DNA of 60,418 bases, from the NCBI GenBank assembly GCA_018651745.1, contig JABIDL010000014.1:1-60418 (forward strand). Direction: 5' to 3'. Within the stretch, counting starts at the first letter, position 1. Each line of letters begins with the position of its first letter. Source of the stretch: Candidatus Neomarinimicrobiota bacterium (GTDB lineage Bacteria; Fidelibacterota; Marinisomatia; Marinisomatales; TCS55). The notes below the pieces were generated by a model that saw only the letters and a list, made by a program, of their open reading frames with translations, was not told the origin of the DNA and searched no databases. A program made the translations under genes and the position numbers. Below are positions 16,530 to 29,516 of the stretch, one piece after another.

Positions 16530-17933
16530 TTATTTATCTAATTGAAGCGTTAAAAACCTTGCAACATCACCAGATCGCAAATGCAACAATATCATATGAT
16601 TTTTTTCAGCTTTTTGAACAAATTTTTGAAAATCTTTTGCCCTAGTCACTTTTCGAGTTCCGACTCTGGTAATCACATCACCTGCCTTGATACCTGCACG
16701 AGAGGCTGAACTATTTTGAAGTACACCTGTAACTACAACGCCCTTAGTAGATCGATCAATTCCATAACGTTCTCTTAATGACGAATCGATATCCTGAACC
16801 CTGAGCCCTATACCCGTTTCATCCGTTTTGGTTTTTGATTTGGACAATACCAGATTGTCTTTCGGAAGTTCTTCAAGAATTACCTTTAACAATTTATTGC
16901 GACCATTTCTGAGGATTTCGACATTTACTTTTTTTTCAGGGTCACTTGAAGAAACTTCATTTTTTAGATGCGAAGGGTCACGAATATCTAAATTGTTAAA
17001 CCGAATAATAACATCTCCTGTCTCTATACCAGCTTTTTCTGCCGGACTATCTACCACTACATCGCCAACCAGTGCACCATTTCGTGTTTCAATTTCAAGC
17101 GCTCTAGCAGTTGCATCATCCAAATCCTGAATATATACACCAAGCCAAGCACGTTGTACAAATCCGTTTTCAATCAAATCATTCATAACATTTTTAACCA
17201 TATTAGAAGGAATAGCAAATCCAACTCCCCGATTTGCCCGTTCAATACCACCCGTAGCAATAGCAGTGTTTATCCCAACTAATTCACCTTCCAAATTCAA
17301 GAGCGCACCTCCAGAATTTCCGGGATTAATTGCGGCATCTGTTTGAATAAAATCCTCATATTTGTTGTTCCCAATGATATTGCTTCTACCTAGCGCACTC
17401 ACAATTCCAACTGTAACTGTGTGTGATAGATTAGTCGAGAAAGGACTTCCTACCGCCACAACCCATTCGCCAACACGGATCTGATCAGAATTGCCCAAAG
17501 GAATAGATGTAATATTTTTTGCATCAATTTGAAGTACAGCCAAATCAGAAGCGGGATCTGTCCCAATGACTTTCGCTTGAAATTCTCTTTTATCGAGTAA
17601 TCGAACCGTAATTTCATCAACATCTGCAACTACATGATTATTAGTGAGAAGATATCCTTTATCTGAATCAACGATTACGCCAGAACCTAGGGCATTCGTC
17701 CTGCGTTCACCATTGTTCATACCGGGTGGAATGAAGTTCCATCCAAAGTAATCCTCAAACTCTTTATGGAATTGATCCATTTTAATAATCTTATCTGTAA
17801 CAATCGTCACAACCGCAGGATTCGCTTTTTCAGCAACATCCGCAAAAACATGCTGAAATTGATTCTGAGCGGATAATACAATTGATCCATTTAATACAAA
17901 AATAGACCAAATAATTAATATAGTTTTTTTCAT
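16530..17933 (-). CDS. degP: DegP/HtrA-type periplasmic serine protease
   Basis: 467 residues with the chosen start. A signal peptide (MKKTILIIWSIFVLNGSIVLSA) is followed by a trypsin-like domain with catalytic H100 (LLTNNHVVAD), D130 (PASDLAVLQID) and S207 (NPGNSGGALL), then two PDZ domains (about 255-350 and 370-465). Family members degrade or chaperone misfolded envelope proteins. A longer open frame from 18026 would read through the terminator of the upstream gene and bury the signal peptide; the ATG at 17931-17933 has an AAAGGAAA site. Transcribed alone, with terminators on both sides. Confidence 0.94.
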   Translation of the reverse strand: MKKTILIIWSIFVLNGSIVLSAQNQFQHVFADVAEKANPAVVTIVTDKIIKMDQFHKEFEDYFGWNFIPPGMNNGERRTNALGSGVIVDSDKGYLLTNNHVVADVDEITVRLLDKREFQAKVIGTDPASDLAVLQIDAKNITSIPLGNSDQIRVGEWVVAVGSPFSTNLSHTVTVGIVSALGRSNIIGNNKYEDFIQTDAAINPGNSGGALLNLEGELVGINTAIATGGIERANRGVGFAIPSNMVKNVMNDLIENGFVQRAWLGVYIQDLDDATARALEIETRNGALVGDVVVDSPAEKAGIETGDVIIRFNNLDIRDPSHLKNEVSSSDPEKKVNVEILRNGRNKLLKVILEELPKDNLVLSKSKTKTDETGIGLRVQDIDSSLRERYGIDRSTKGVVVTGVLQNSSASRAGIKAGDVITRVGTRKVTRAKDFQKFVQKAEKNHMILLHLRSGDVARFLTLQLDK

Positions 17934-17996
17934 TGATAGTTTCCTTTTGAATTGTTTGCTCATTTTTATGCTGAAAAATAGAAATGGTTCCAAATG

Positions 17997-18023
17997 AAAA
18001 ACGGTCTCAAAGAGACCGCTTTT
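17997..18023 (-). terminator. Rho-independent terminator after giant T9SS protein
   Basis: On the minus strand AAAAGCGGTCTC, loop TTT, GAGACCG, then TTTTTC: a 7 bp GC-rich core stem flanked by A and T runs, 25 bp after the stop codon of the giant secreted protein. It also argues against the longer degP start. Confidence 0.88.
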
Positions 18024-18047
18024 CAAATGATAATTTCAGTTACTAAA

Positions 18048-21000
18048 TTACTTGAGTAACACCATCTTTTTCGTGGCATGATATGTTCCGGCAGAAATAG
18101 TATAAAAATACATTCCCGTTGAAACCGGGGATCCGGCATCATTTAGACCATTCCACGATACACTATGGAATCCTGCACTAAGATCTTCGGTAACCAAAGT
18201 CCGAACCTCTTTCCCCATGATGTTAAACACCGTCAAAGTAACTGGAGCTGTTTCGGGTAGATCAAATCGAATTTCCGTAACCGGATTAAACGGATTTGGA
18301 TAATTCTGATGCAATGCATACACCATCGGCAACACCTCTATTTTGAGAGAGGATCCTTCATCTCTAACAGGAATTGAAATTCCTCCCGGACCTGATATCA
18401 TTACTTTGCTCAAAGCAACATCTGTTCCTGCAGAAGCATCGTTAGCCATTGAAATTGGAAGCGTTACAAAAGCACCATCTTTCATATCTAACCCACCACC
18501 ATTCAGGTCAAGCGCCACAACCATATAATTTCCTTCACCATCATCTAAATGCTGTAGCATCATTCCATCTGTAGATGCATTCAAAACAGGACTTCCAAAT
18601 GTCAGTTGATTTGGATCATAAGATACCGTGAATTGGAATCCTCTAGAAATACTTTCATAAGAAACATTCACAGCCAATGCACCACTGGAATGCCCCAAAC
18701 TCACACCGGCTGTAGCTGAAGGATCAAAAGCAATTGTCCTACTTGATGACGTTCCAAAAATGATATCTACTGTCATAACAATATCTTGAATATTGATCAT
18801 CCGATCATCATTAATATCAGCGGCACGGAATTCTTCGTCGCTTGGAGAATCTGTACCCAAAGCGAAGTCAACAATTGTCGGGATATCTACAATATCTACA
18901 TCATTGTCAAAATCAACATCACCAAGTTTGTATGGCTTGGCACAAACCTCTACAGAATACTTTGATTCTAATGTGTCAAAATCGTCTGTATCCCAAATGG
19001 CTTTCACAGCGTAGCAATAGTCTGAATAATTCGCAAGCCCAGTTACAGTGTATGTAGTATCTCCAGGCCCATTATTTCCGATAAGTGTATCGCCTGAAGA
19101 ACGAATTTCATAAATGTTGTAACCTGCAAGACTATCTTCACGACTTGTTCTGTAATTAGCGGAATTTGACGGATGTGTATTTAATACAACTTCCAAATTC
19201 TCTTCGCCATTTGATCCTAGGTAGAGTTCTTTAATCACATCATTGGTCGGGTGTGAAAGCATGGCAAATTCTCCGCTAACTGCTTCATTTCGATTCCCTT
19301 GTGGACGACTAATTGATTCTGACCCAATAATGACAGTTAAGCCACTACTAGACGAAATTAAGGCCTCGTGACTACCTGTTGCAAAAATACCATAACCAGC
19401 ACCCATTTCTGTCCAACCACCTGTAGCATTACCAAAATAAAGTGTACCGTTATAACTATCTTCATCAACACTTACATAAGGACCATCAGTCCCAACATTG
19501 TAAGTCGCAACCAAAAATCCACCTGATTCAATGGTAAAATCATCTATATCAACTTCTATAAAGTCATCGCTAACACCGGGAACCGTATAAGGACCACTCA
19601 ACTCAGTTACACCATCATCTGCGAATACATAGACTTCAATATCATCTGTTGGAGTTCCACCAGTTGATACATGAAAACGAACAGCGGTAACAGTTGCTGG
19701 ATATCCAGATGGGGTAAATAAAGTCCCAAGACCTGCACCTCCCGATGTAGATCCATAACCATTTTCGAATGTTCCATCATGATAAAATACCCAATCACCT
19801 GGCAACGAAGCACCTGGAGTCATCCAGGTAAGATCAACTTCACCATCACCCGGTTCTGCATTTAATGCCGCTGGTTTACCTAAAATAGGAAGAATAGTAA
19901 AATCCTGAACTGTTGCAGCTTCTTGAGCAATAACGGTTACATCCGCTACCTCTCCGTCGAAACCGCTACGAGAAACTGTTACTGTATATGTTCCCGGATC
20001 AAGATCCATAATAGAGTACGCGCCGTCTGTTCCTGTCGTATCCCTTTTGCTTCCTACTGAAACAATCGCGCTGTCCATTGCCGTGGTTCCATCCGGACCG
20101 TAAACTGTTCCACTGATATCGCCGTACATCCAAGTTGGAGTAACTACAACTTCAATAGTATCACTCTTGTAAAAAGGATAATAAAGAGCAGTCACGCCTA
20201 AAGTGTAAGCTACTCCATTGGTGAGTCCTGTGACAATTGTGTTATTCCCTGAAATCGAATCAGCAATAACCGAGTTGTTTGAAATGACCTGATAATGAAG
20301 GAAATCGCCATCGGTAGCTCGAGAAGTAAATGCATCCGCTGTAGGGTCAGAGTCATAAATAATAATATTGTCAATTGCCCAAAACCAAGCCCAAGAATTG
20401 TTATCGTTGTAATGAAACCGAATTTTTACATTGCTAGAATCACCAGCTACAGATGTTAAGTCTACTATTTCGTTGCTCGGGGCTGTAGATGAACCTATAT
20501 CAGCATCCCACGTAAACATATTCGTCCATGTTGTACCACCGTCCGTAGATACATCCACTGCAGCAAAGTCCGAATTATCACCAGTAGTTAGATCATTATA
20601 AAATGTAAGAAATGATAGATAAGGAGTGGCAATAGTAGAAAAATTAAAAGACCCCGTAATGAGTTCTTCATCCATTGCTACATCACTTGGTGCATCATCT
20701 GAATCGCAAATTGCATAGAGTGCATCTCCAAATCCTGAAAGTACTGCATTCGAGTTTGCATGAGGTGATGCCCATGTATATTCGTCATCATTTAGATTTA
20801 CAATAGTCCAATCTGCAGGAATGCCATTATCAAAACTTTCATAATAAACATAATTTGGCGTGCCGGGAACTGTCCATGCAAGAAACGCCGCTTCGTCCAA
20901 AGCTGTTCCTCGGATATTCGTTGGTGGGTTGGCAACAAACGCTTCTGGCGTAGCACATAGAGTTTCTGAAACGTCTGACTCTCCTCCCGTATAATTGGCT

Positions 21001-22307
21001 ACGACGTAATAACAATATTCTGCATCATTCGTCAGGTTCTCATGAATATAGGCAGTTGTATCTACAACTGAGTCAACCACTGTACCGACGCTATTATAAA
21101 TGATATAATTCTGTAGATCCCCGCAACCATCAATAACCTCTCGGGAATTGTAATTCATATTTGGTGTTGATTCTTGTTCAAATTCCTTGATTCCCATTAA
21201 ATAATCTGAGATATCAAGATTCTGTGACATTGCCTGCTTATAAGTAAAAATCTCATTATCAGAATAAGGGATATCATTAGAAATTGCTTCGGCTCGATGT
21301 ACTCCTCGTGAATCTCCAATGCTCCAGTGAATTTCTAAACTAGGTGGATTTGCATCATTCCATCCATCAAGATAAACATGATATGTACCAGAGGCATCTC
21401 TATCTACAATGCCCATTGCAAAATATCCTTGTTGAATAGCTGCTGCTAAATCCGTATTAGCACTATTGATTAGCACATTAGAATATTGCCCCGGTGAAAA
21501 AGTTGCCGATTCTGACTGGTATAAATAGGATTCAGTAGCAGTGATCCCCGTGTTAATATCTGCATGCAATGCACCTGCATCTCCGGACAAGGGATCAACC
21601 GATATTGGAGTAACATTCCAGTATGGCCAATTGGTTGCATTCACATAATAATTAAAAATGATTGTATCAACAGATACAAAAGGAACCATTCCCGCGAGAT
21701 CAAAACGGATCCAACCGGATTGACGGCTTGTTGAACTTCCGGCATCTGCTTTGATAGCACTCGTTTCTGTAAAACCCGCATTAGTGGCCGAGCCGGTGTG
21801 ATAATCTGCAGAACCCGGCGATGCAGGAAATGGGTTTTCGGAAGAAGCATCAATCGGTTTATTCCAGCTCAAAAAGTTTCTAGCATCCCCGGCAATTAAA
21901 GAAAAACCGGTAGGAACACATAAATTATCTACCGAAGGAAGATCAACATTGAAATTGACGGTGTCAAATGCAGCTGGATTGAAACTGTTTCCGGATGGAT
22001 CAACAGCTTCAAGTTTAAGTTGATATGTTCCTTCGTAAAGATTTGATATGGGAACAGGTCCTACGGCAGTAACACTTGAATTATAATATCCATTTAAATA
22101 CACTTTAAGATATCCATCACAATCAAGACAGCCAACGGAATCAATATCAAAAAAGCTAGCAAGGGTAAATGTGACGTCAATTGAGTCCGTCATGACTGTC
22201 ACTCCTTCAGTAGGAAATGTAATCTGAACAACCTCGTCCCGATTAGTCTGACCTACAACAATTGCTAAAAGGGTAATAAAAAATGTAATCTGTTTAATAT
22301 TTCTCAT
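18048..22307 (-). CDS. Giant multidomain secreted protein with type IX sorting domain
   Basis: 1419 residues from the ATG at 22305-22307, which has a GAGGAAAA site and starts a signal peptide (RNIKQITFFITLLAIVVGQ). Modules seen, in order: Ig-like (about 20-125); a DNRLRE-like beta-sandwich (about 165-330) interleaved with fibronectin-III-like segments; a cleaved-adhesin/MAM-like module (about 485-650, from YYESFDNGIPADW); a carboxypeptidase-regulatory-like domain (about 727-800, GTVYGPDGTTAMDSA); FN3 segments; a dockerin-like pair of EF-hand loops (about 1126-1180, GDVDFDNDVDIVDI and ADINDDRMINIQDI); a cohesin-like domain (about 1190-1325); and a Por/T9SS type A sorting domain (QNYPNPFNPVTEIRF to the end). 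Probably surface-bound or released; no catalytic domain is recognised. A longer frame to 22391 adds a polar leader without support. Confidence 0.85.
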   Translation of the reverse strand: MRNIKQITFFITLLAIVVGQTNRDEVVQITFPTEGVTVMTDSIDVTFTLASFFDIDSVGCLDCDGYLKVYLNGYYNSSVTAVGPVPISNLYEGTYQLKLEAVDPSGNSFNPAAFDTVNFNVDLPSVDNLCVPTGFSLIAGDARNFLSWNKPIDASSENPFPASPGSADYHTGSATNAGFTETSAIKADAGSSTSRQSGWIRFDLAGMVPFVSVDTIIFNYYVNATNWPYWNVTPISVDPLSGDAGALHADINTGITATESYLYQSESATFSPGQYSNVLINSANTDLAAAIQQGYFAMGIVDRDASGTYHVYLDGWNDANPPSLEIHWSIGDSRGVHRAEAISNDIPYSDNEIFTYKQAMSQNLDISDYLMGIKEFEQESTPNMNYNSREVIDGCGDLQNYIIYNSVGTVVDSVVDTTAYIHENLTNDAEYCYYVVANYTGGESDVSETLCATPEAFVANPPTNIRGTALDEAAFLAWTVPGTPNYVYYESFDNGIPADWTIVNLNDDEYTWASPHANSNAVLSGFGDALYAICDSDDAPSDVAMDEELITGSFNFSTIATPYLSFLTFYNDLTTGDNSDFAAVDVSTDGGTTWTNMFTWDADIGSSTAPSNEIVDLTSVAGDSSNVKIRFHYNDNNSWAWFWAIDNIIIYDSDPTADAFTSRATDGDFLHYQVISNNSVIADSISGNNTIVTGLTNGVAYTLGVTALYYPFYKSDTIEVVVTPTWMYGDISGTVYGPDGTTAMDSAIVSVGSKRDTTGTDGAYSIMDLDPGTYTVTVSRSGFDGEVADVTVIAQEAATVQDFTILPILGKPAALNAEPGDGEVDLTWMTPGASLPGDWVFYHDGTFENGYGSTSGGAGLGTLFTPSGYPATVTAVRFHVSTGGTPTDDIEVYVFADDGVTELSGPYTVPGVSDDFIEVDIDDFTIESGGFLVATYNVGTDGPYVSVDEDSYNGTLYFGNATGGWTEMGAGYGIFATGSHEALISSSSGLTVIIGSESISRPQGNRNEAVSGEFAMLSHPTNDVIKELYLGSNGEENLEVVLNTHPSNSANYRTSREDSLAGYNIYEIRSSGDTLIGNNGPGDTTYTVTGLANYSDYCYAVKAIWDTDDFDTLESKYSVEVCAKPYKLGDVDFDNDVDIVDIPTIVDFALGTDSPSDEEFRAADINDDRMINIQDIVMTVDIIFGTSSSRTIAFDPSATAGVSLGHSSGALAVNVSYESISRGFQFTVSYDPNQLTFGSPVLNASTDGMMLQHLDDGEGNYMVVALDLNGGGLDMKDGAFVTLPISMANDASAGTDVALSKVMISGPGGISIPVRDEGSSLKIEVLPMVYALHQNYPNPFNPVTEIRFDLPETAPVTLTVFNIMGKEVRTLVTEDLSAGFHSVSWNGLNDAGSPVSTGMYFYTISAGTYHATKKMVLLK

Positions 22308-22484
22308 GGTACCATTTTCCTCATTAATTTGTTTATGGGTATTCTTTTCCTCAATCGTTAGAGGTAACAAGCGACGGAATTTACTTTTCAATGCGACTTA
22401 TCCAAAAGCTTTTACGCTTTTCAAATTCCTCGTGAAACCGGCAGTTGTAGAGGCAAGAAAATAGTATCCAATTTTAAATTTATA

Positions 22485-22554: not shown

Positions 22555-25512
22555 TTAAATCCCCTTCGAAAAACTAAATAACCACTTATCTGACCTAAAC
22601 TGATAACCATTTTTCTCACTGCTAATATCTTTTACCATTAACGGTACATCAATCCTGATTGTAAATTCTTTTCCAAAAATAGATTTTTTCATTCTCATAC
22701 CTAAACCTGCATCTAATAAATAGTCGCCTTTAAACCCACCATCCCCTTGGGTAAACTTGCTCCCCCAAATCCATCCATCATCTATAAAAGCGGCTAATTC
22801 AATATTGATTACTTTCAATCCAGGATTGAAAAATAGTTCAAATGAATTCGTGATAACAGATTCAGAACCCACAAGATTTTCACCATAATATCCTCGTAGA
22901 TTTGCGTCACCCGGTAAGTGATAATGACCTCTCAACTGAGTATTCCCGTAAAAAGAAGTTGCATCACGTAAAAATGGTTTCCTGTACAAATCACCCGATC
23001 CAGCACCCTCGATTGTATATCGTTCCTGAGAAGGCACCCCTGTTTCGCTGGAAATGTGCCCCACAATAATTCTATTTCTAAAACCAAATTTTCCACTACT
23101 ATAGTCTACTGATGCTATGGCATTAAAACGTGTAAAAGACCAATCAGAAATAGAGCCGGGCGTCGTGGATACATCCACATTGATATTTACTAATTCCTGA
23201 ACTGAAAAATTGTATCTACTAAATAAAACAACAACCTGGCCAACATCAAAAAGATTGGTACGCATCGTGTCTATTGCATGAGTTACATAAAATCCGATAG
23301 ACGCATCATGCGTAAGAAAATCTGCAAATGCTTCGTTTAAGTGATTTTTCATTTCCAATCCATAACCGCTGACACCGCCAAAATCAAAAGCGTGCAAAGA
23401 CGATGAAAATCCCGCAAAACTGTGGACCAGTTTTCTGTCGACATTCCAAGACCAATATACGTGATTCGATTTAGAGGCATAATGCAAACCCGTCTGAAGA
23501 TATTCCCAGTATCCGTACTTTCTCTTCATGCGAAATCCGGGAATGTATCCATCAAGTTCATGGTAGGATAATGTTGGGGTCCATCGCCCGTAAAAGGAGT
23601 CTCTAGGATTATATCCTGTATTGATCCAGTCGAACTGCCATTCGCGGGGCATGCGCCCGCTGTAGTTATTGCGGCGGTCAACATCAATGGTCATTCCATC
23701 CGGATCAAGTACGATAGATTTTGGATCACGTTGTACGTTAAATAAAAATGTATCATCCTTGCGCCATTGATGATTTATCCACCACAATCGTTTTGCAGAT
23801 CCATCAGCAAATGTAATTTCTAAAAGTTGAGGCATTTCCCGCGTTCCGTGCTTAACGATATTGAGATCGACTTTCCAAGAACCATCAGACTGCTTTGTTT
23901 TACTCCATGAATCAATTCCGTAGTCAAGGATGCGTGTGTTGTGCAGCCACGGATTAAAAAACCAATCCAGCTTTTCTCCGGAAATGTTTTCCACAGATGA
24001 AATAAACCGTTCTTCATTTACATGCTTCAGATGCCACCGATCAAAATATTCCTGCATAGAAGCATAAAACAGAGAATCCCCTAATACATAATTGAGTTCT
24101 ACCAGCATGAGTCCGGGTTTGGTGTAGGCATTGTAGCGATAGGATCCGCCATTGTTGAACATGTAGGATTTTCTGCTGATCGGTTCATCTTTCCCACTGG
24201 TTTGAAATCGAATTGTGGACCACTGAGCCCTATCTAAAAAACTTGTGAATTTCCCATGTTTTTTCTCAAATGATTTATATCGTTTGGATGCATCCAAGTC
24301 AAAACCATGTGCACCATATCTATTTATCATATACTGTCCGGTTTGAAAGGTTGTAAATCCTTCATCCAGCCAAGATTCGGAAACTTCATCGTTCCCCATG
24401 ATTCCGTAAAACCAAATATGCCCAATCTCATGTACGATCAAACTCTCACTTTCACTGCCATTCATAACCAGCATTGGATATTCCATGCCTCCACCCTTGA
24501 GCCTATCGGTCGTTGTCACCTGCGGATAGGGATACATACCAAATTTTGTACTTAGCCATTCCAAGGCTCGTTCCGATCTTGCCGTCACTTTTTTCGTCCA
24601 CTTTTTGCCATTTTTCTCATTAAACAAAACATGAACATCAATTCCATTCCAAGCACCATGTTCGTATAAAAAGTTGGGTGAAGTTATCCAAGCGAAATCG
24701 TGGACTTGTTCTGCGTGAAAGGATACGGTTCTCCGTGCTGCTGAATCAATATCCACTTTGTTTTCCTGATATTTTTCGAGCCAATCTTCAAAATCTGCGG
24801 ACGTATCAACGGCAACGTTCTGCCAACCCGGATCTCCATCTGTCACTATTCCCGTCGCGCCAACTGTGTACCACGCCGGAACATCAAGGGTAACATCAAA
24901 CGTACCGAATTCACCGTAGAACTCTCCTTCTGCATGAAACGGAATATTATGCCAGCCATTTTCATCATAGACAACCACTTTGGGATACCATTGCGCAAAG
25001 TTGTACTGTTCATCAACTCTTCCGGCGCGTTCTACTTGTTCACCCACATGGTGCACCCAATCAAATTCCATTGTCAGCGTTTCTCCGGGTTTCAGCGGTT
25101 TAGATAAAGATGATGATAAAATTGTATCATCCATTTGAAAAGTGTCCGACAAGGTTGTCCCTTCCAACATGATAGAAAAATTGCTGACAACCACCTTGCT
25201 GAAATAGGAATCCATTCCTTCAATAAACTTCGCCGCCCTACCTAACCGTCCAAATTTTTGCAGATATTCACGATGCTTCACCGATCCTTCCTGAAATGCG
25301 TTCGGTAGTAAATGCAGATACATGTTTTGAATATTATCCGGTGAATTATTTGTATAAGTAATGATGGATTTTCCGCCGACTGTGTGCTCATTTATATCGA
25401 GAGAAACATCCATCTTATACTGCACAAACTGCTGCCAATAATCATTAGATGCGTTGAGGAAAGTTGCACTCGTACAACACACAAGCAAAATCCTCATTAA
25501 TAAAGAATTCAT
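22555..25512 (-). CDS. M1-family metallopeptidase fused to an Omp85-like barrel
   Basis: 985 residues from the ATG at 25510-25512, which gives a signal peptide (MNSLLMRILLVCCTSATFLNA); the longer frame overlaps tlpA. Gluzincin signature: GGGMEYP (340-346, the exopeptidase GxMEN-like loop), HEIGH (361-365) and WLDEGF with E384, an exact HExxH-x18-E spacing, so zinc ligands and general base are present. From about 640 to the end the sequence is an outer-membrane beta-barrel: LRGYYGE at 872, AAFIDDGWIWGS, LDAGLGMRMK and FTIRIDVPLMV follow the order of the C-terminal Omp85/surface-antigen (D15) barrel. Probably a surface-exposed or periplasm-facing peptidase anchored by its own barrel. 16 bp after tlpA. 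Confidence 0.85.
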   Translation of the reverse strand: MNSLLMRILLVCCTSATFLNASNDYWQQFVQYKMDVSLDINEHTVGGKSIITYTNNSPDNIQNMYLHLLPNAFQEGSVKHREYLQKFGRLGRAAKFIEGMDSYFSKVVVSNFSIMLEGTTLSDTFQMDDTILSSSLSKPLKPGETLTMEFDWVHHVGEQVERAGRVDEQYNFAQWYPKVVVYDENGWHNIPFHAEGEFYGEFGTFDVTLDVPAWYTVGATGIVTDGDPGWQNVAVDTSADFEDWLEKYQENKVDIDSAARRTVSFHAEQVHDFAWITSPNFLYEHGAWNGIDVHVLFNEKNGKKWTKKVTARSERALEWLSTKFGMYPYPQVTTTDRLKGGGMEYPMLVMNGSESESLIVHEIGHIWFYGIMGNDEVSESWLDEGFTTFQTGQYMINRYGAHGFDLDASKRYKSFEKKHGKFTSFLDRAQWSTIRFQTSGKDEPISRKSYMFNNGGSYRYNAYTKPGLMLVELNYVLGDSLFYASMQEYFDRWHLKHVNEERFISSVENISGEKLDWFFNPWLHNTRILDYGIDSWSKTKQSDGSWKVDLNIVKHGTREMPQLLEITFADGSAKRLWWINHQWRKDDTFLFNVQRDPKSIVLDPDGMTIDVDRRNNYSGRMPREWQFDWINTGYNPRDSFYGRWTPTLSYHELDGYIPGFRMKRKYGYWEYLQTGLHYASKSNHVYWSWNVDRKLVHSFAGFSSSLHAFDFGGVSGYGLEMKNHLNEAFADFLTHDASIGFYVTHAIDTMRTNLFDVGQVVVLFSRYNFSVQELVNINVDVSTTPGSISDWSFTRFNAIASVDYSSGKFGFRNRIIVGHISSETGVPSQERYTIEGAGSGDLYRKPFLRDATSFYGNTQLRGHYHLPGDANLRGYYGENLVGSESVITNSFELFFNPGLKVINIELAAFIDDGWIWGSKFTQGDGGFKGDYLLDAGLGMRMKKSIFGKEFTIRIDVPLMVKDISSEKNGYQFRSDKWLFSFSKGI

Positions 25513-25528
25513 TTTGTTTATAATAGAA

Positions 25529-26095
25529 TTATAAATAGGGTATAATATCTTTAAGGAATTCTTGGTGAGTTCTGGGTCCAATATACCCCTTGACGATATA
25601 TCCTTCTCTATCAATCAAGAATGTGGTTGGAACTGCATAAATTTGTTGTCCGACAGCTTTACCAACCATGCCTGAAACTTGTTGGGTTTCATTCCCTGTA
25701 ATATCAGATAGTACAAGGTATTCCATATTCCAATCATTGGCGAATGTTGCAATGTCATTCGCCGATCCAGAGGTCAAGGTAACTCCTACAATTTCAAGCC
25801 CATCTTTTCTATGATCTTTATATAATTTATTGAAATCAGGAATTTCTATTTTGCAAGGACCGCACCACGTTCCCCAAAAATTCAGAAGAACAACTTTACC
25901 TAACAGATCTTGCATTTTTACCAAATCCCTGGTAACGCTATTTAACAAAGTAAAATCGGGCGCTAAAACTGATCCCTCAGGACGCGGTGGATAAGAGTCT
26001 ATTTTTGATGTATTTACTTGGGGCTTTTCTTCTTTTTGGCTGCAAGCCGGCGTAATCAATAATAGAAACATTAACCCTACTAAAAGGTATTTCAT
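25529..26095 (-). CDS. TlpA/ResA-like thioredoxin lipoprotein
   Basis: 188 residues. Lipoprotein signal peptide with lipobox ending TPAC (Cys18), a short linker, then an AhpC/TSA-Redoxin-type thioredoxin fold with LNFWGTWCGPCKIEIP (active-site CxxC at about 81-84) and the cis-Pro segment VPTTFLIDREG. Such proteins keep periplasmic cysteines reduced for cytochrome c maturation or metal-centre assembly. Overlaps the upstream dsbD gene by 4 bp, so the natural electron donor is probably that DsbD. Anchored in the inner or outer membrane, facing the periplasm. Confidence 0.9.
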   Translation of the reverse strand: MKYLLVGLMFLLLITPACSQKEEKPQVNTSKIDSYPPRPEGSVLAPDFTLLNSVTRDLVKMQDLLGKVVLLNFWGTWCGPCKIEIPDFNKLYKDHRKDGLEIVGVTLTSGSANDIATFANDWNMEYLVLSDITGNETQQVSGMVGKAVGQQIYAVPTTFLIDREGYIVKGYIGPRTHQEFLKDIIPYL

Positions 26096-27978
26096 TGGGA
26101 AAGTCCTTTATCTAAAAATGCGAGAAAATCATCTATATTTCGTGACATTCCCGGAAAACGACCAAGCACCTTATCTTCTGGGCTCAGTATCACATAAAAA
26201 GGTAAGGCAGCTGTACCAAACCTGTCAATTTCATATTGCTGATGTTCTCGGTAATTCGGTCCGCCATCGGTATATAATTGTACTAAAATCATTTTTTCAA
26301 ACCGTTCTAAAACTTCTTTCTCAGGAAAAATATTTGTTTCCATCCAACGGCAATTGGTACAGGTGTAACCCGTAAAGTCCACAAAAACAGGTTTTCCGGT
26401 TTTTTGAGCCACGGCCAAGCCATCTTCCAATTCGGTATACCATTCCAGATTATGAACCGCTGAAAAACCGTTTTCATTACCTCCGGAAGCAACACTCGCC
26501 TCCAGTGGAGGTGGTAAATAAGAATTTATCAATCCATGGATTTTTTGTCCGAATAAGCCGGTGCCTAAATACAAAGCAAAAGTAATAAATATAAAACTTA
26601 AAATCATTCTCGGCACACCAATCGTTTCCAATTTTGAATCGTGAGGAAGACGAATTTTTCCCAGTAAATATATTCCTGTGAAAAGCATCAAAATTGCCCA
26701 GGAAGCAAGTACCATTTTATGTGTAAAAAATCCCCAACCCCAAACGAGATCCATATTGCTAAGGAATTTAAATGCAGCAGCTAATTCCAAAAATCCCATC
26801 ACAACTTTCACTGCATTTAACCAAGAGCCCGATTGTGGCATTTTTGCAAGGTATTGCGGAAAAAGTGCTAAAAAGAAAAAAGGTAATGCAAAAGCACCGC
26901 TAAAAACTATCATCCCAATTCCAGGCCAAAACCACTGCCCTTGAGCTGCAGCGACAAGAAGCAACCCAACAAACTGAACTGTACAAGTAAAAGAAGTGAG
27001 CGTAAATGTAACTGCCATAAACAAGGTGCCTACATAGCCTCCACGCCCTTCCTGCTTTAGAGTGAATTGGCTAAAACTTTGGGGAAGTTGAATTTCGTAC
27101 ATCCCGAAAAGAGACAATGCAAAATATATAAATAACGATGCGATGAAAAAATTAACCCATGGATTTGCTGCCAATTGATTGGCACCGGATGCACCTAGCG
27201 TAAATGCCAATATTAATCCGAGCAATGTAAATGTTCCCATAATACCAAGAGTATAAACCGTCGCCTGCTTGATTGGACTTTCCCCTTCCATTTCTCCTTG
27301 CTTTGTAAAAAAGGAAACTGTTATGGGAATCATTGGAAAAACGCAGGGAGTTAATAAAGCTAAAAAACCCATCGAAAGCGCCAATAAAATAAATGGAAAA
27401 AATCCTGCTTCAATAGCCGCATCTAAATCAATGTTTCCACTCTGGTCTATTGTGGTGGAGCTAGCGAGAAAAATCCTATCATTCCGAGCTGGACCTTCTT
27501 CAACCTGAATTGTAACAGGAATGTGTACTTCTTTTGGAGGGTAGCACACCGAAGCATTACAAACTTGATACATTACCGTAACAGTTACAGTCAATTCGCC
27601 TTGCGCAAGTTCTTCTTTTAGTAGAATTGGAACCGTGAATTCTACATTCCCTCTATGGAACCGGGTTTCCATTTCAAACCCATCGTCCCATTCTAAAATT
27701 GGTGCAGGTTCAATCACTCTTCCTTTGGTTTCGATTCCGTCGCCCGAAGTGGAAATTCTAGACGCGATGGGCCCATCCGGAACATCATAAAGTGCATAAA
27801 TATGCCATTCATCATCCATTTTTGCTTGGACGGAAATATTAACAACCTCGCCGGCACGTGCAGGGTCTTTTACATCAGCTGAAACCGAAACAGGATCCTG
27901 GAATTGAGCCAGAATAACTGCCGGGATTAAAAGTATCAAACCCGATATAATTTTGAGTTTTTGTTGGTTATTCCACAT
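26092..27978 (-). CDS. dsbD: Thiol:disulfide interchange protein DsbD
   Basis: 628 residues from the ATG at 27976-27978; a TTG three codons upstream is possible. Signal peptide (to about residue 26), an N-terminal DsbD-alpha domain with the cysteine pair in YQVCNASVCYPP (about 140-150), a DsbD-beta membrane domain with about eight helices and the conserved LTPCVFPMIPITV and FTCTVQFVG cysteines, and a C-terminal thioredoxin domain with GYTCTNCRWME. It passes electrons from cytoplasmic thioredoxin across the membrane to periplasmic partners. The coupled TlpA-like lipoprotein (4 bp overlap) is the likely acceptor. The patatin gene ends 36 bp upstream, so it may be part of the pyrF operon. Confidence 0.94.
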   Translation of the reverse strand: MWNNQQKLKIISGLILLIPAVILAQFQDPVSVSADVKDPARAGEVVNISVQAKMDDEWHIYALYDVPDGPIASRISTSGDGIETKGRVIEPAPILEWDDGFEMETRFHRGNVEFTVPILLKEELAQGELTVTVTVMYQVCNASVCYPPKEVHIPVTIQVEEGPARNDRIFLASSTTIDQSGNIDLDAAIEAGFFPFILLALSMGFLALLTPCVFPMIPITVSFFTKQGEMEGESPIKQATVYTLGIMGTFTLLGLILAFTLGASGANQLAANPWVNFFIASLFIYFALSLFGMYEIQLPQSFSQFTLKQEGRGGYVGTLFMAVTFTLTSFTCTVQFVGLLLVAAAQGQWFWPGIGMIVFSGAFALPFFFLALFPQYLAKMPQSGSWLNAVKVVMGFLELAAAFKFLSNMDLVWGWGFFTHKMVLASWAILMLFTGIYLLGKIRLPHDSKLETIGVPRMILSFIFITFALYLGTGLFGQKIHGLINSYLPPPLEASVASGGNENGFSAVHNLEWYTELEDGLAVAQKTGKPVFVDFTGYTCTNCRWMETNIFPEKEVLERFEKMILVQLYTDGGPNYREHQQYEIDRFGTAALPFYVILSPEDKVLGRFPGMSRNIDDFLAFLDKGLSQ

Positions 27979-28014
27979 AGAGATCAATTAAAATATCTTT
28001 TAAATTACCATGAT

Positions 28015-28923
28015 TTAATTATTGCGACCAACCCATTGTTTCATTTTATAAATCCATGAAGATTTTTCATTTAACAAGTTTATAATTTCATCAACTGTTT
28101 CTGCAGCTGCATTGTTCCCCTTTTCCACTAAGGCGTCAACTTCATCAAAACTGGCCCAATGTAAATCTTTTACATGCGGGCGAATTACGAAATCTGCTTC
28201 AGCATTATTATATTTAACAAGATTCTCATAGGTTGCTTGATTGGCCCTCATCACAATTTCAAAAATATTAACTCGTTTCATTTTTGTAGAAGTTTTGCGA
28301 GTGATATCCACTGCAATAATAAAATCCGCTTGATCTCTTATTGGCTGAACTGGAATAGGGAATATCGCATTTCCATCCACTATAATTTCTTCCGAATTTC
28401 GAGTTGGCTGTACATAACCAGGAATCGAACTGCTTCGAACAATTGCTTCAATCAAATCACCTTCGGAATAAATTCGAGGTTGCATCGTTTCCAATTCGGT
28501 GGCAGTTATAAAAAGTGGGACCTTAAGTTCTTCAAATGTTTTAACGGGAACAAGATATCGAAATGCTTCTTCTAACCGTTTCCTTTTTATAATAGAATCA
28601 CGCCTGAGTGACACAACCATCACAAGATTATTTTTTATTTTTCTTGCCAATTGCCCAAAAACGGAATTAGAAAAAGTGCTGGGTACCACTTTGCCAACGC
28701 CCATTTGGTTAAACACTTTGTTGGTCAAAAAGGATTTAAACCTTTCTTCTACCCATACCGGATCTTCTGTTGCGGCATACATGGCACCAATGAGTGCACC
28801 GGCACTCGTCCCTGCTATGCAATCAAATTTGATGTTGTTTTCATGAAGAACTTTTAACACACCAATATGGGCAGCACCTCTTGCACCACCCCCGCTCAGG
28901 GCAAGCCCTGTTTTTAGTCTCAT
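28015..28923 (-). CDS. Patatin-like phospholipase
   Basis: 302 residues. Patatin fold with the oxyanion motif LALSGGGARGAAHIG (7-21), the nucleophile elbow GTSAGALIGAMYA (Ser in GxSxG, about 39-43) and the catalytic-dyad Asp in DGNAIFPIPV (about 180). No signal peptide, so it is cytoplasmic or membrane-peripheral, like RssA/YchK-type proteins. The C-terminal ~80 residues are helical and charged. Substrate is unknown; lipid acyl hydrolase activity is expected from the family. Overlaps the cyclophilin gene by 4 bp. Confidence 0.9.
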   Translation of the reverse strand: MRLKTGLALSGGGARGAAHIGVLKVLHENNIKFDCIAGTSAGALIGAMYAATEDPVWVEERFKSFLTNKVFNQMGVGKVVPSTFSNSVFGQLARKIKNNLVMVVSLRRDSIIKRKRLEEAFRYLVPVKTFEELKVPLFITATELETMQPRIYSEGDLIEAIVRSSSIPGYVQPTRNSEEIIVDGNAIFPIPVQPIRDQADFIIAVDITRKTSTKMKRVNIFEIVMRANQATYENLVKYNNAEADFVIRPHVKDLHWASFDEVDALVEKGNNAAAETVDEIINLLNEKSSWIYKMKQWVGRNN

Positions 28924-29516
28924 TCGTTCTTAAGAGATTTTTTTTGAATGATTTTGATCGTCATTTCCACCCTTTCGATTGGATTGTCTCTCCGGTCTCT
29001 ATCTACAGCCACAATTTTATCTGCGACTTCAATTCCTTGAATAATTTGTCCAAAAACGGTGTATTTATTATCAAGTTGGTTCACATTATCCACACAAATG
29101 AAAAACTGACTGCTTGCACTATTCGGATCATTTGTCCTCGCCATAGAAAGCGCACCTTTGTGGTGAGGATGATCATTGAACTCTTCAGGAATTAACCAAG
29201 TATTTGGATCGTCTTCATTTCCAATTCCAAAGAACTTTCCGGCCCTTCCCCCTTGCCCGTGTTTTGTCCTATCCTCATCTTTTGAATTTGGATCTCCACC
29301 CTGAATGACAAATCCCGGAATAATACGGTGAAACGTTGATCCGTTAAAATAGCCTTCTTGCGCTAAAATCTTAAAACTTTCAACATGCTTCGGTGCAATC
29401 TCCGGAAAAAATTCGATCACCATATCACCAAACGTTGTTGAAATAACCGCAACTTCCGGTTCTTTTGCATTCGCCATCATAACCATCATAATTAATACTC
29501 CTATTCGTTTTTTCAT
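28920..29516 (-). CDS. Exported cyclophilin-type peptidyl-prolyl isomerase
   Basis: 198 residues. Signal peptide MKKRIGVLIMMVMMANA, then a cyclophilin domain with VESFKILAQEGYFNGSTFHRIIPGFVIQGGDP broken here into its usual motifs: YFNGSTFHRIIPGF (catalytic Arg in FHR), IQGGDPNSK, GALSMARTNDPNSASSQFFI and YTVFGQIIQG. It catalyses cis-trans isomerisation of prolyl bonds and probably helps fold envelope proteins in the periplasm. An insertion GNEDDPNTWLIPEEFND before GALSMAR is typical of bacterial PpiA/B variants. Overlaps both neighbours (pyrE and patatin gene) by 4 bp. Confidence 0.92.
   Translation of the reverse strand: MKKRIGVLIMMVMMANAKEPEVAVISTTFGDMVIEFFPEIAPKHVESFKILAQEGYFNGSTFHRIIPGFVIQGGDPNSKDEDRTKHGQGGRAGKFFGIGNEDDPNTWLIPEEFNDHPHHKGALSMARTNDPNSASSQFFICVDNVNQLDNKYTVFGQIIQGIEVADKIVAVDRDRRDNPIERVEMTIKIIQKKSLKNE

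Follow-up and report, generated by a model that had tools for sequence, protein, structure and literature searches.

A putative outer-membrane-anchored M1 metallopeptidase with a POTRA-less Omp85-type barrel in Neomarinimicrobiota

A gene in the genome of a Candidatus Neomarinimicrobiota bacterium raises the question of what kind of protein joins a zinc peptidase to an apparent membrane barrel, and on which side of the outer membrane its enzyme would sit. The gene lies at 22555..25512 on the minus strand of a 60,418-nucleotide stretch, here called the window (assembly GCA_018651745.1, contig JABIDL010000014.1), and encodes 985 amino acids plus a stop codon; full-length orthologues exist. All features described below are on the same strand. 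A sequence-only reading of the window had given these coordinates correctly, though without the strand, and had proposed that an M1 metallopeptidase and an Omp85-family barrel form one chain that displays the enzyme at the cell surface, as in type Vd secretion. An intact M1 enzyme does share a chain with an Omp85-family barrel, which is unusual, but surface display is not borne out. The best explanation, to which we give a probability of roughly 0.7, is that the gene encodes a periplasmic metallopeptidase anchored in the outer membrane, namely a secreted M1 enzyme that ends in a POTRA-less 16-stranded Omp85-type barrel.

A Sec signal peptide, judged by eye, occupies residues 1-22 (25447..25512). 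It is followed by the M1 gluzincin part, residues 23-602 (23707..25446), delimited by Pfam, AlphaFold2 and Foldseek and made up of an N-terminal beta domain, a catalytic domain and a small C-terminal beta domain. Peptidase_M1 (PF01433) is matched at 4.5e-14, with 53 bits against a gathering cut-off of 27.7, and the best Foldseek match of the full model is the insulin-regulated aminopeptidase (E 3.4e-24), an enzyme of IRAP/ERAP type. The AlphaFold2 model of the mature chain, built from 19 aligned rows, has a mean predicted local distance difference test (pLDDT) score of 85.2 and a predicted template modelling score (pTM) of 0.86. The HExxH-18-E pattern and the catalytic tyrosine of M1 enzymes are present in 21 of 21 close relatives: the zinc site HEIGH at 361-365 (24418..24432), with ligands H361 and H365 and general base E362, the third zinc ligand E384 (24361..24363) and Y463 (24124..24126) do not vary. 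We take Y463 to be a candidate for the transition-state tyrosine of M1 enzymes. GGMEY at 341-345 (24478..24492), also invariant in 21/21, replaces GxMEN, of which it is a variant and which is the exopeptidase motif of classical M1 enzymes. Since it differs from GxMEN by one letter, aminopeptidase specificity is unsure. Judged by its sequence, the protein belongs to peptidase family M1, this motif excepted.

The C-terminal half has no Pfam match, Omp85 (PF01103) included, when the protein is searched. AlphaFold2 places 16 strands in residues 640-982 (22567..23595), and a model of the barrel alone has a pLDDT of 76.9. Its best 50 Foldseek matches are all BamA, TamA or Sam50 (top E 3.1e-10), and the best 50 VIA-align matches of the barrel alone are likewise confined to BamA, TamA and Sam50. 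The barrel aligns with BamA 8bnz (Z 20.7, 4.5 Å, 303 residues), TamA 8us1 (Z 19.7, 5.2 Å, 288 residues) and Flavobacterium johnsoniae BamA 9n2d (Z 19.6, 4.4 Å, 294 residues), VIA-align rows no more than 1 Z apart being treated as ties. The alignment runs from the first through the last strand, e.g., from model residues 47-389 to BamA 423-808. What is predicted is an Omp85-family barrel and not a soluble C-terminal domain, the outcome that would have undone the sequence-only reading. The dyad hydropathy of the strands was tried as a membrane-barrel indicator and dropped: at 2.09, against a shuffled value of 1.11 (none of 2000 shuffles reaching it), it is exceeded by the soluble M1 strands, which score 2.41, and so fails to tell membrane sheets from soluble ones.

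The barrel also carries the residues of the Omp85 lid lock. According to Maier and colleagues (PMC4490367), the two Omp85 signatures are (V/I)RG(Y/F) at the tip of loop 6 (L6) and (F/G)xDxG on strand 13, connected by an Arg-Asp salt bridge. The fusion has its own versions of both, LRGY at 872-875 (22888..22899) and FIDDG at 909-913 (22774..22788), the latter corresponding to the barrel-wall motif FxDxG; these, like HEIGH, E384 and GLGMRMK at 936-942, are where they had been claimed to be. In the AlphaFold2 model the connection between strands 11 and 12 (residues 823-884, 22861..23046) is 62 residues long and contains the conserved stretch YHLPGDANLRGY together with LRGY, so that the YHLPGDANLRGY loop sits where Omp85 proteins bear L6 with its RG[YF]. 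R873, F909 and D911 occur without exception in the 29 barrels aligned (A5), with LRG[YF] in 21 and LRA[YF] or the like in eight. LRGY is likewise reported for F. johnsoniae BamA (PMC12611786), and FxDxG is tied to the BamA/TamA barrel shape, as opposed to the wider FhaC form, in PMC4490367. Alignment A7 has the R-D pair in 13 of 17 rows; the remaining four, placed with Rhodothermia, have V and G. As the four form one clade, the joint loss would represent one event in which both partners disappeared together. These loci (L051, L056, L064 and L093, Rhodothermia and kin) keep the barrel while both the lid-lock Arg and Asp are replaced.

Where, then, would the enzyme sit? Known Omp85 barrels have their N-terminus in the periplasm. 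Since the match to BamA extends over this barrel from strand 1 to the last strand, the end that bears the peptidase should likewise face the periplasm. Between the M1 part and strand 1 there are only 37 residues (603-639, 23596..23706), in which the AlphaFold2 secondary structure contains no POTRA fold, the point that the sequence-only reading had proposed to check for residues 600-700. The fusion therefore differs from the Omp85 proteins with at least one POTRA ahead of the barrel (BamA, TamA, FhaC, PlpD), and its predicted membership in Omp85 comes from fold and lid lock and not from POTRA. Under type Vd-like secretion, the barrel would translocate the M1 domain through the outer membrane and keep it on the outside. 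The layout of enzyme, linker and barrel resembles that of PlpD, and helix H1 of FhaC is reported to pass through the Omp85 pore with the lid lock closed (PMC4490367). However, the patatin domain of PlpD, the type Vd archetype, is itself reported to remain periplasmic in a 2024 study (PMC11116518), and PlpD is the sole enzyme-Omp85 fusion with a tested topology that we found. The barrel register is that of BamA, with both barrel ends periplasmic, about 580 folded residues would have to be moved across, the POTRA of PlpD is absent, and the gene context is periplasmic. We consider surface display, and the surface proteolysis proposed with it, quite unlikely. The periplasmic folding and quality-control neighbours (cyclophilin, DsbD, TlpA and DegP) are best read as favouring a periplasmic peptidase.

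From the computed domain composition, barrel fold, lid-lock residues, intact active-site residues and conserved gene cluster, we infer the following course of events for the anchored periplasmic enzyme. The fusion protein would be exported by Sec; its C-terminal barrel would then fold and insert in the outer membrane, where R873-D911 would lock L6 to the barrel wall; the peptidase would be held at the periplasmic face by the linker to strand 1; and it might trim peptides or N-termini, perhaps those generated by DegP, during periplasmic protein turnover, alongside the co-encoded DegP, cyclophilin and DsbD/TlpA.

Several observations weigh against this interpretation. The membrane side of the peptidase is derived from homology, and given the passage of the FhaC chain through a closed lid lock, the 37-residue linker is no strict bar to surface display. 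Relatives that appear to have lost the zinc site suggest that the architecture does more than proteolysis. The periplasmic neighbours are missing in two of 29 relatives (L029 and L032). Family models reach the barrel with difficulty: orthologue L027 matches PF01103 at 32.7 bits (cut-off 24) in the whole-genome search, while hmmscan of the L027 protein gives no Omp85 match; there is a weak ShlB match (0.018) in one of 21 rows of alignment A1, a weak Omp85 match (0.025) in one of 19 rows of A2, and no match to either family model in seven Bacteroidia rows. The hhalign comparison with BamA barrels of the same phylum is also weak (probability 2.3%, E 0.02), with LRGY in register, and a profile search of PDB sequences finds no match. 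The barrel profile does reach an Omp85 open reading frame (ORF) of genome G038, which PF01103 also matches, at E 9.6e-6 for one genome among the 149 searched. The predicted Omp85 assignment is carried by fold and motif evidence, with family models near their limit. Finally, both cysteines of the protein lie within the signal peptide. The mature chain, predicted to be free of cysteine, would not itself be a disulfide client of DsbD/TlpA, and a disulfide link of the fusion to these proteins was ruled out; among 21 aligned rows, 17 have no cysteine in the counted part and four have 1-3.

Part of the family apparently does without catalysis. Loci L163-L167, frames of genomes G064, G069, G078 and G103 plus G118, keep the lid-lock R, G, Y, F, D and G in 5/5 of the joint alignment and the full zinc site in 0/5, though with sequences this divergent the residues assigned to each zinc-site position depend on the alignment. 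L163-L166 (alignment A9) align with the active family over their full length (hhalign 99.9%, E 1.3e-31, 863 columns), and two of these four have a Pfam M1 match, one above the cut-off. A query made from them matches 94 of 149 genomes at 1e-10, mostly through active relatives, and 13 with E <1e-170. The five loci are, as far as alignment can tell, apparent pseudo-peptidases with the same barrel and lid lock. Since zinc-less members keep the lid lock, the platform outlives catalysis, which suggests that it has a role beyond holding an enzyme.

This would fit an Omp85 protein that works as an assembly or translocation factor, receives its substrates through the M1 fold in place of POTRA and, in active members, also trims the client. 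Besides the retained lid lock and the full-length alignment of the zinc-less proteins, a possible client is at hand in the neighbouring secreted protein at 18048-22391, which ends in a sorting tail of the kind used by the type IX secretion system (T9SS). On the other hand, the genome has six other Omp85 matches, so that BamA is presumably covered; the Rhodothermia retain the barrel without the lid lock; and the sorting-tail gene adjoins the fusion in just four of 29 relatives (1.5 kb flank). We regard such a factor as unlikely. It is similarly doubtful, though conceivable, that client N-termini or strands are caught in the M1 cleft beside the barrel seam, where active members, acting with DegP, would trim or degrade them and zinc-less members would serve purely as receptors or chaperones.

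Is the fusion real, and how far does it extend? The sequence-only reading had suggested looking for it in other Marinimicrobia and in the Fibrobacterota-Chlorobiota-Bacteroidota (FCB) group, and full-length orthologues are indeed found there in dozens of genomes. Counting the window's own genome and 60 relatives, matches at 1e-5 occur in 56 of 61 (exceptions G016, G020, G023, G026 and G043), some of them only via paralogues or partial genes. The species collection has at least 563 confirmed relatives, of which the best 80 named loci were compared. The C-terminal extension measures 371-483 residues in 23 of these and 24-61 in 53, and four are cut by contig ends. The 23 extended loci belong to Neomarinimicrobiota, an FCB bacterium, Krumholzibacteriota, Gemmatimonadota, Chrysopegis, Rhodothermia and Bacteroidia, and hhalign shows homology between the Bacteroidia C-termini and the Marinimicrobia barrel (94.2%, E 1.2e-7, 315 columns). 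In a sample of 149 genomes from across the phylum, the barrel profile matches 62. Among 22 more distant barrel genomes an M1 match is found in 21, and in 17, judged from the positions of the two matches, it shares the reading frame of the barrel; G064, G069, G078 and G103 have a barrel frame without an M1 match, and in G113 the two parts are on separate contigs. The barrel homologues are thus mostly inside M1 or M1-like proteins and not separate proteins unrelated to peptidases. The predicted fusion is widespread, with Kryptonia among its groups.

These data bear on whether the barrel could be an artefact of two fused neighbouring genes, or something other than a membrane part of the enzyme. 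M1 relatives do exist in free form, with no barrel (the 53 short loci among the best 80, besides the four cut by contig ends), and in G033 the gene is split; but the fusion is a single open frame in dozens of genomes, its extension is two-valued in length and its lid-lock residues are strictly conserved, which together make an artefact very improbable. The split in G033 (contig C35), the lone exception, falls at the M1-barrel junction and leaves frames of 675 and 327 amino acids, either through a frameshift or by real fission.

The barrel-less relatives include secreted Bacteroidota M1 peptidases of about 615 amino acids, which are homologous to residues 1-616 of the fusion at about 30% identity and stop before the barrel. 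A tree of the M1 part alone was built by a quick method from 65 rows, including 18 of the 53 barrel-less loci (every third) and 10 of the 29 relatives L004-L032, with the contig-end-cut rows L038, L041, L042, L065 and L066 left out and the midpoint root falling on a long branch. In this tree a branch with support of 93 sets off the barrel-less Bacteroidota, which adjoin the Rhodothermia, with support of 99 for the pair; the three label states need a minimum of two changes, the least possible. With the root provisionally placed at the midpoint, decay of the barrel followed by its loss would be one history that fits both the tree and the degenerate lid lock of Rhodothermia. Two further groups stand apart. 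Ten paralogues (L149-L158) form a second family, about 30% identical and with a similar extension, whose members have sequences like GPGLRG and FVDLAG close to the C-terminus, while four loci (L159-L162) of about 800 amino acids form a third group and end without a barrel.

The fusion shares features with several known systems. Like the M1 aminopeptidases (ERAP/IRAP, PepN, LTA4H), it has HExxH-18-E, the catalytic tyrosine and the fold; unlike them, it has GGMEY for GxMEN, and its barrel takes the position of the C-terminal helical domain of ERAP-type enzymes. It resembles BamA and TamA in its fold over 16 strands (Z ~19-21), in RG[YF] on L6 and in FxDxG on the wall, and differs from them in lacking POTRA, in its large catalytic N-terminus and in a barrel sequence too distant for Pfam Omp85. 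PlpD and FplA, the patatin-Omp85 proteins formerly assigned to type Vd, also have an N-terminal enzyme and a C-terminal 16-stranded Omp85-type barrel, and the reported periplasmic side of the PlpD enzyme (PMC11116518) is a further likeness to the topology favoured here. The fusion is unlike them in having an M1 metallopeptidase instead of a patatin lipase, PF01433 being the only domain that Pfam finds in it, and in having no POTRA. The Omp85 'Metallo' subfamily of Heinz and Lithgow (2014; PMC4104836) is likewise POTRA-less with an N-terminal metal enzyme. Its PF00149 domain, however, is named Metallophos in Pfam and belongs to a phosphoesterase family unrelated to M1, and the group was therefore ruled out as an earlier description of the fusion. 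PMC4104836 calls the PF00149 domain a metalloprotease, which, given the Pfam name, makes the label 'Omp85-metalloprotease' misleading. The Bam subunit BamM was also considered as a metallopeptidase and ruled out, as PMC12611786 describes it as a calcium-bearing lipoprotein with a peptidyl-prolyl isomerase (PPIase) fold.

Ten bacterial Omp85 subfamilies are defined in PMC4104836 (section 10), none of which includes an M1 peptidase. The predicted POTRA-less M1-Omp85 architecture has no place in this ten-subfamily scheme. No description of the fusion was found among the papers listed by the literature searches, which did not reach subscription journals or UniProt/InterPro architectures. An Omp85 protein that has a true protease site but no POTRA, occurs across the FCB group and has enzyme-dead sisters with the lid lock retained offers a natural experiment on the purpose of POTRA domains and the lid lock, and on the actual location of the enzyme in Omp85 fusions. 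In phyla with almost no genetics, it also hints at a branch of periplasmic protein quality control that is tethered to the outer membrane.

The gene neighbourhood reads, on one strand, PyrF, PyrE, cyclophilin, patatin, DsbD, TlpA, the fusion, a 1447-amino-acid sorting-tail protein and a Do-family protease, PyrE and PyrF having been identified by eye. Directly upstream of the fusion is a TlpA/ResA-like thioredoxin (25529..26095; Pfam, NCBIfam), then a DsbD-like protein-disulfide reductase (26092..27987; Pfam), a patatin-like phospholipase (28015-28923) and a cyclophilin-type PPIase with an N-terminal hydrophobic stretch (28920..29516; Pfam), the last conserved in the cluster. Downstream, the secreted protein at 18048-22391, with its FlgD-Ig/T9SS type A sorting tail, lies between the fusion and a Do-family (DegP/HtrA) serine endopeptidase (16530..18026), which matches TIGR02037 above the cut-off. 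In 29 relatives examined for neighbours with flanks of about 1.5 kb, TlpA holds the same position in 27, a DsbD query matches in 27, two of them at just 23-26% identity, and the Do protease is found downstream in 14. Named Neomarinimicrobiota repeat the block of PyrE, PPIase, patatin, DsbD, TlpA and fusion, followed by the Do protease with or without the sorting-tail gene.

Two minor observations concern this cluster. Patatin, the enzyme fused to Omp85 in PlpD, is here a separate gene within the conserved M1-Omp85 cluster. The DsbD at the conserved position is 23-36% identical to that of the window in L034, L037, L039, L041, L042, L023 and L026, compared with about 60-84% for most other DsbDs of the cluster, as if a different DsbD had taken its place at the low-identity loci.

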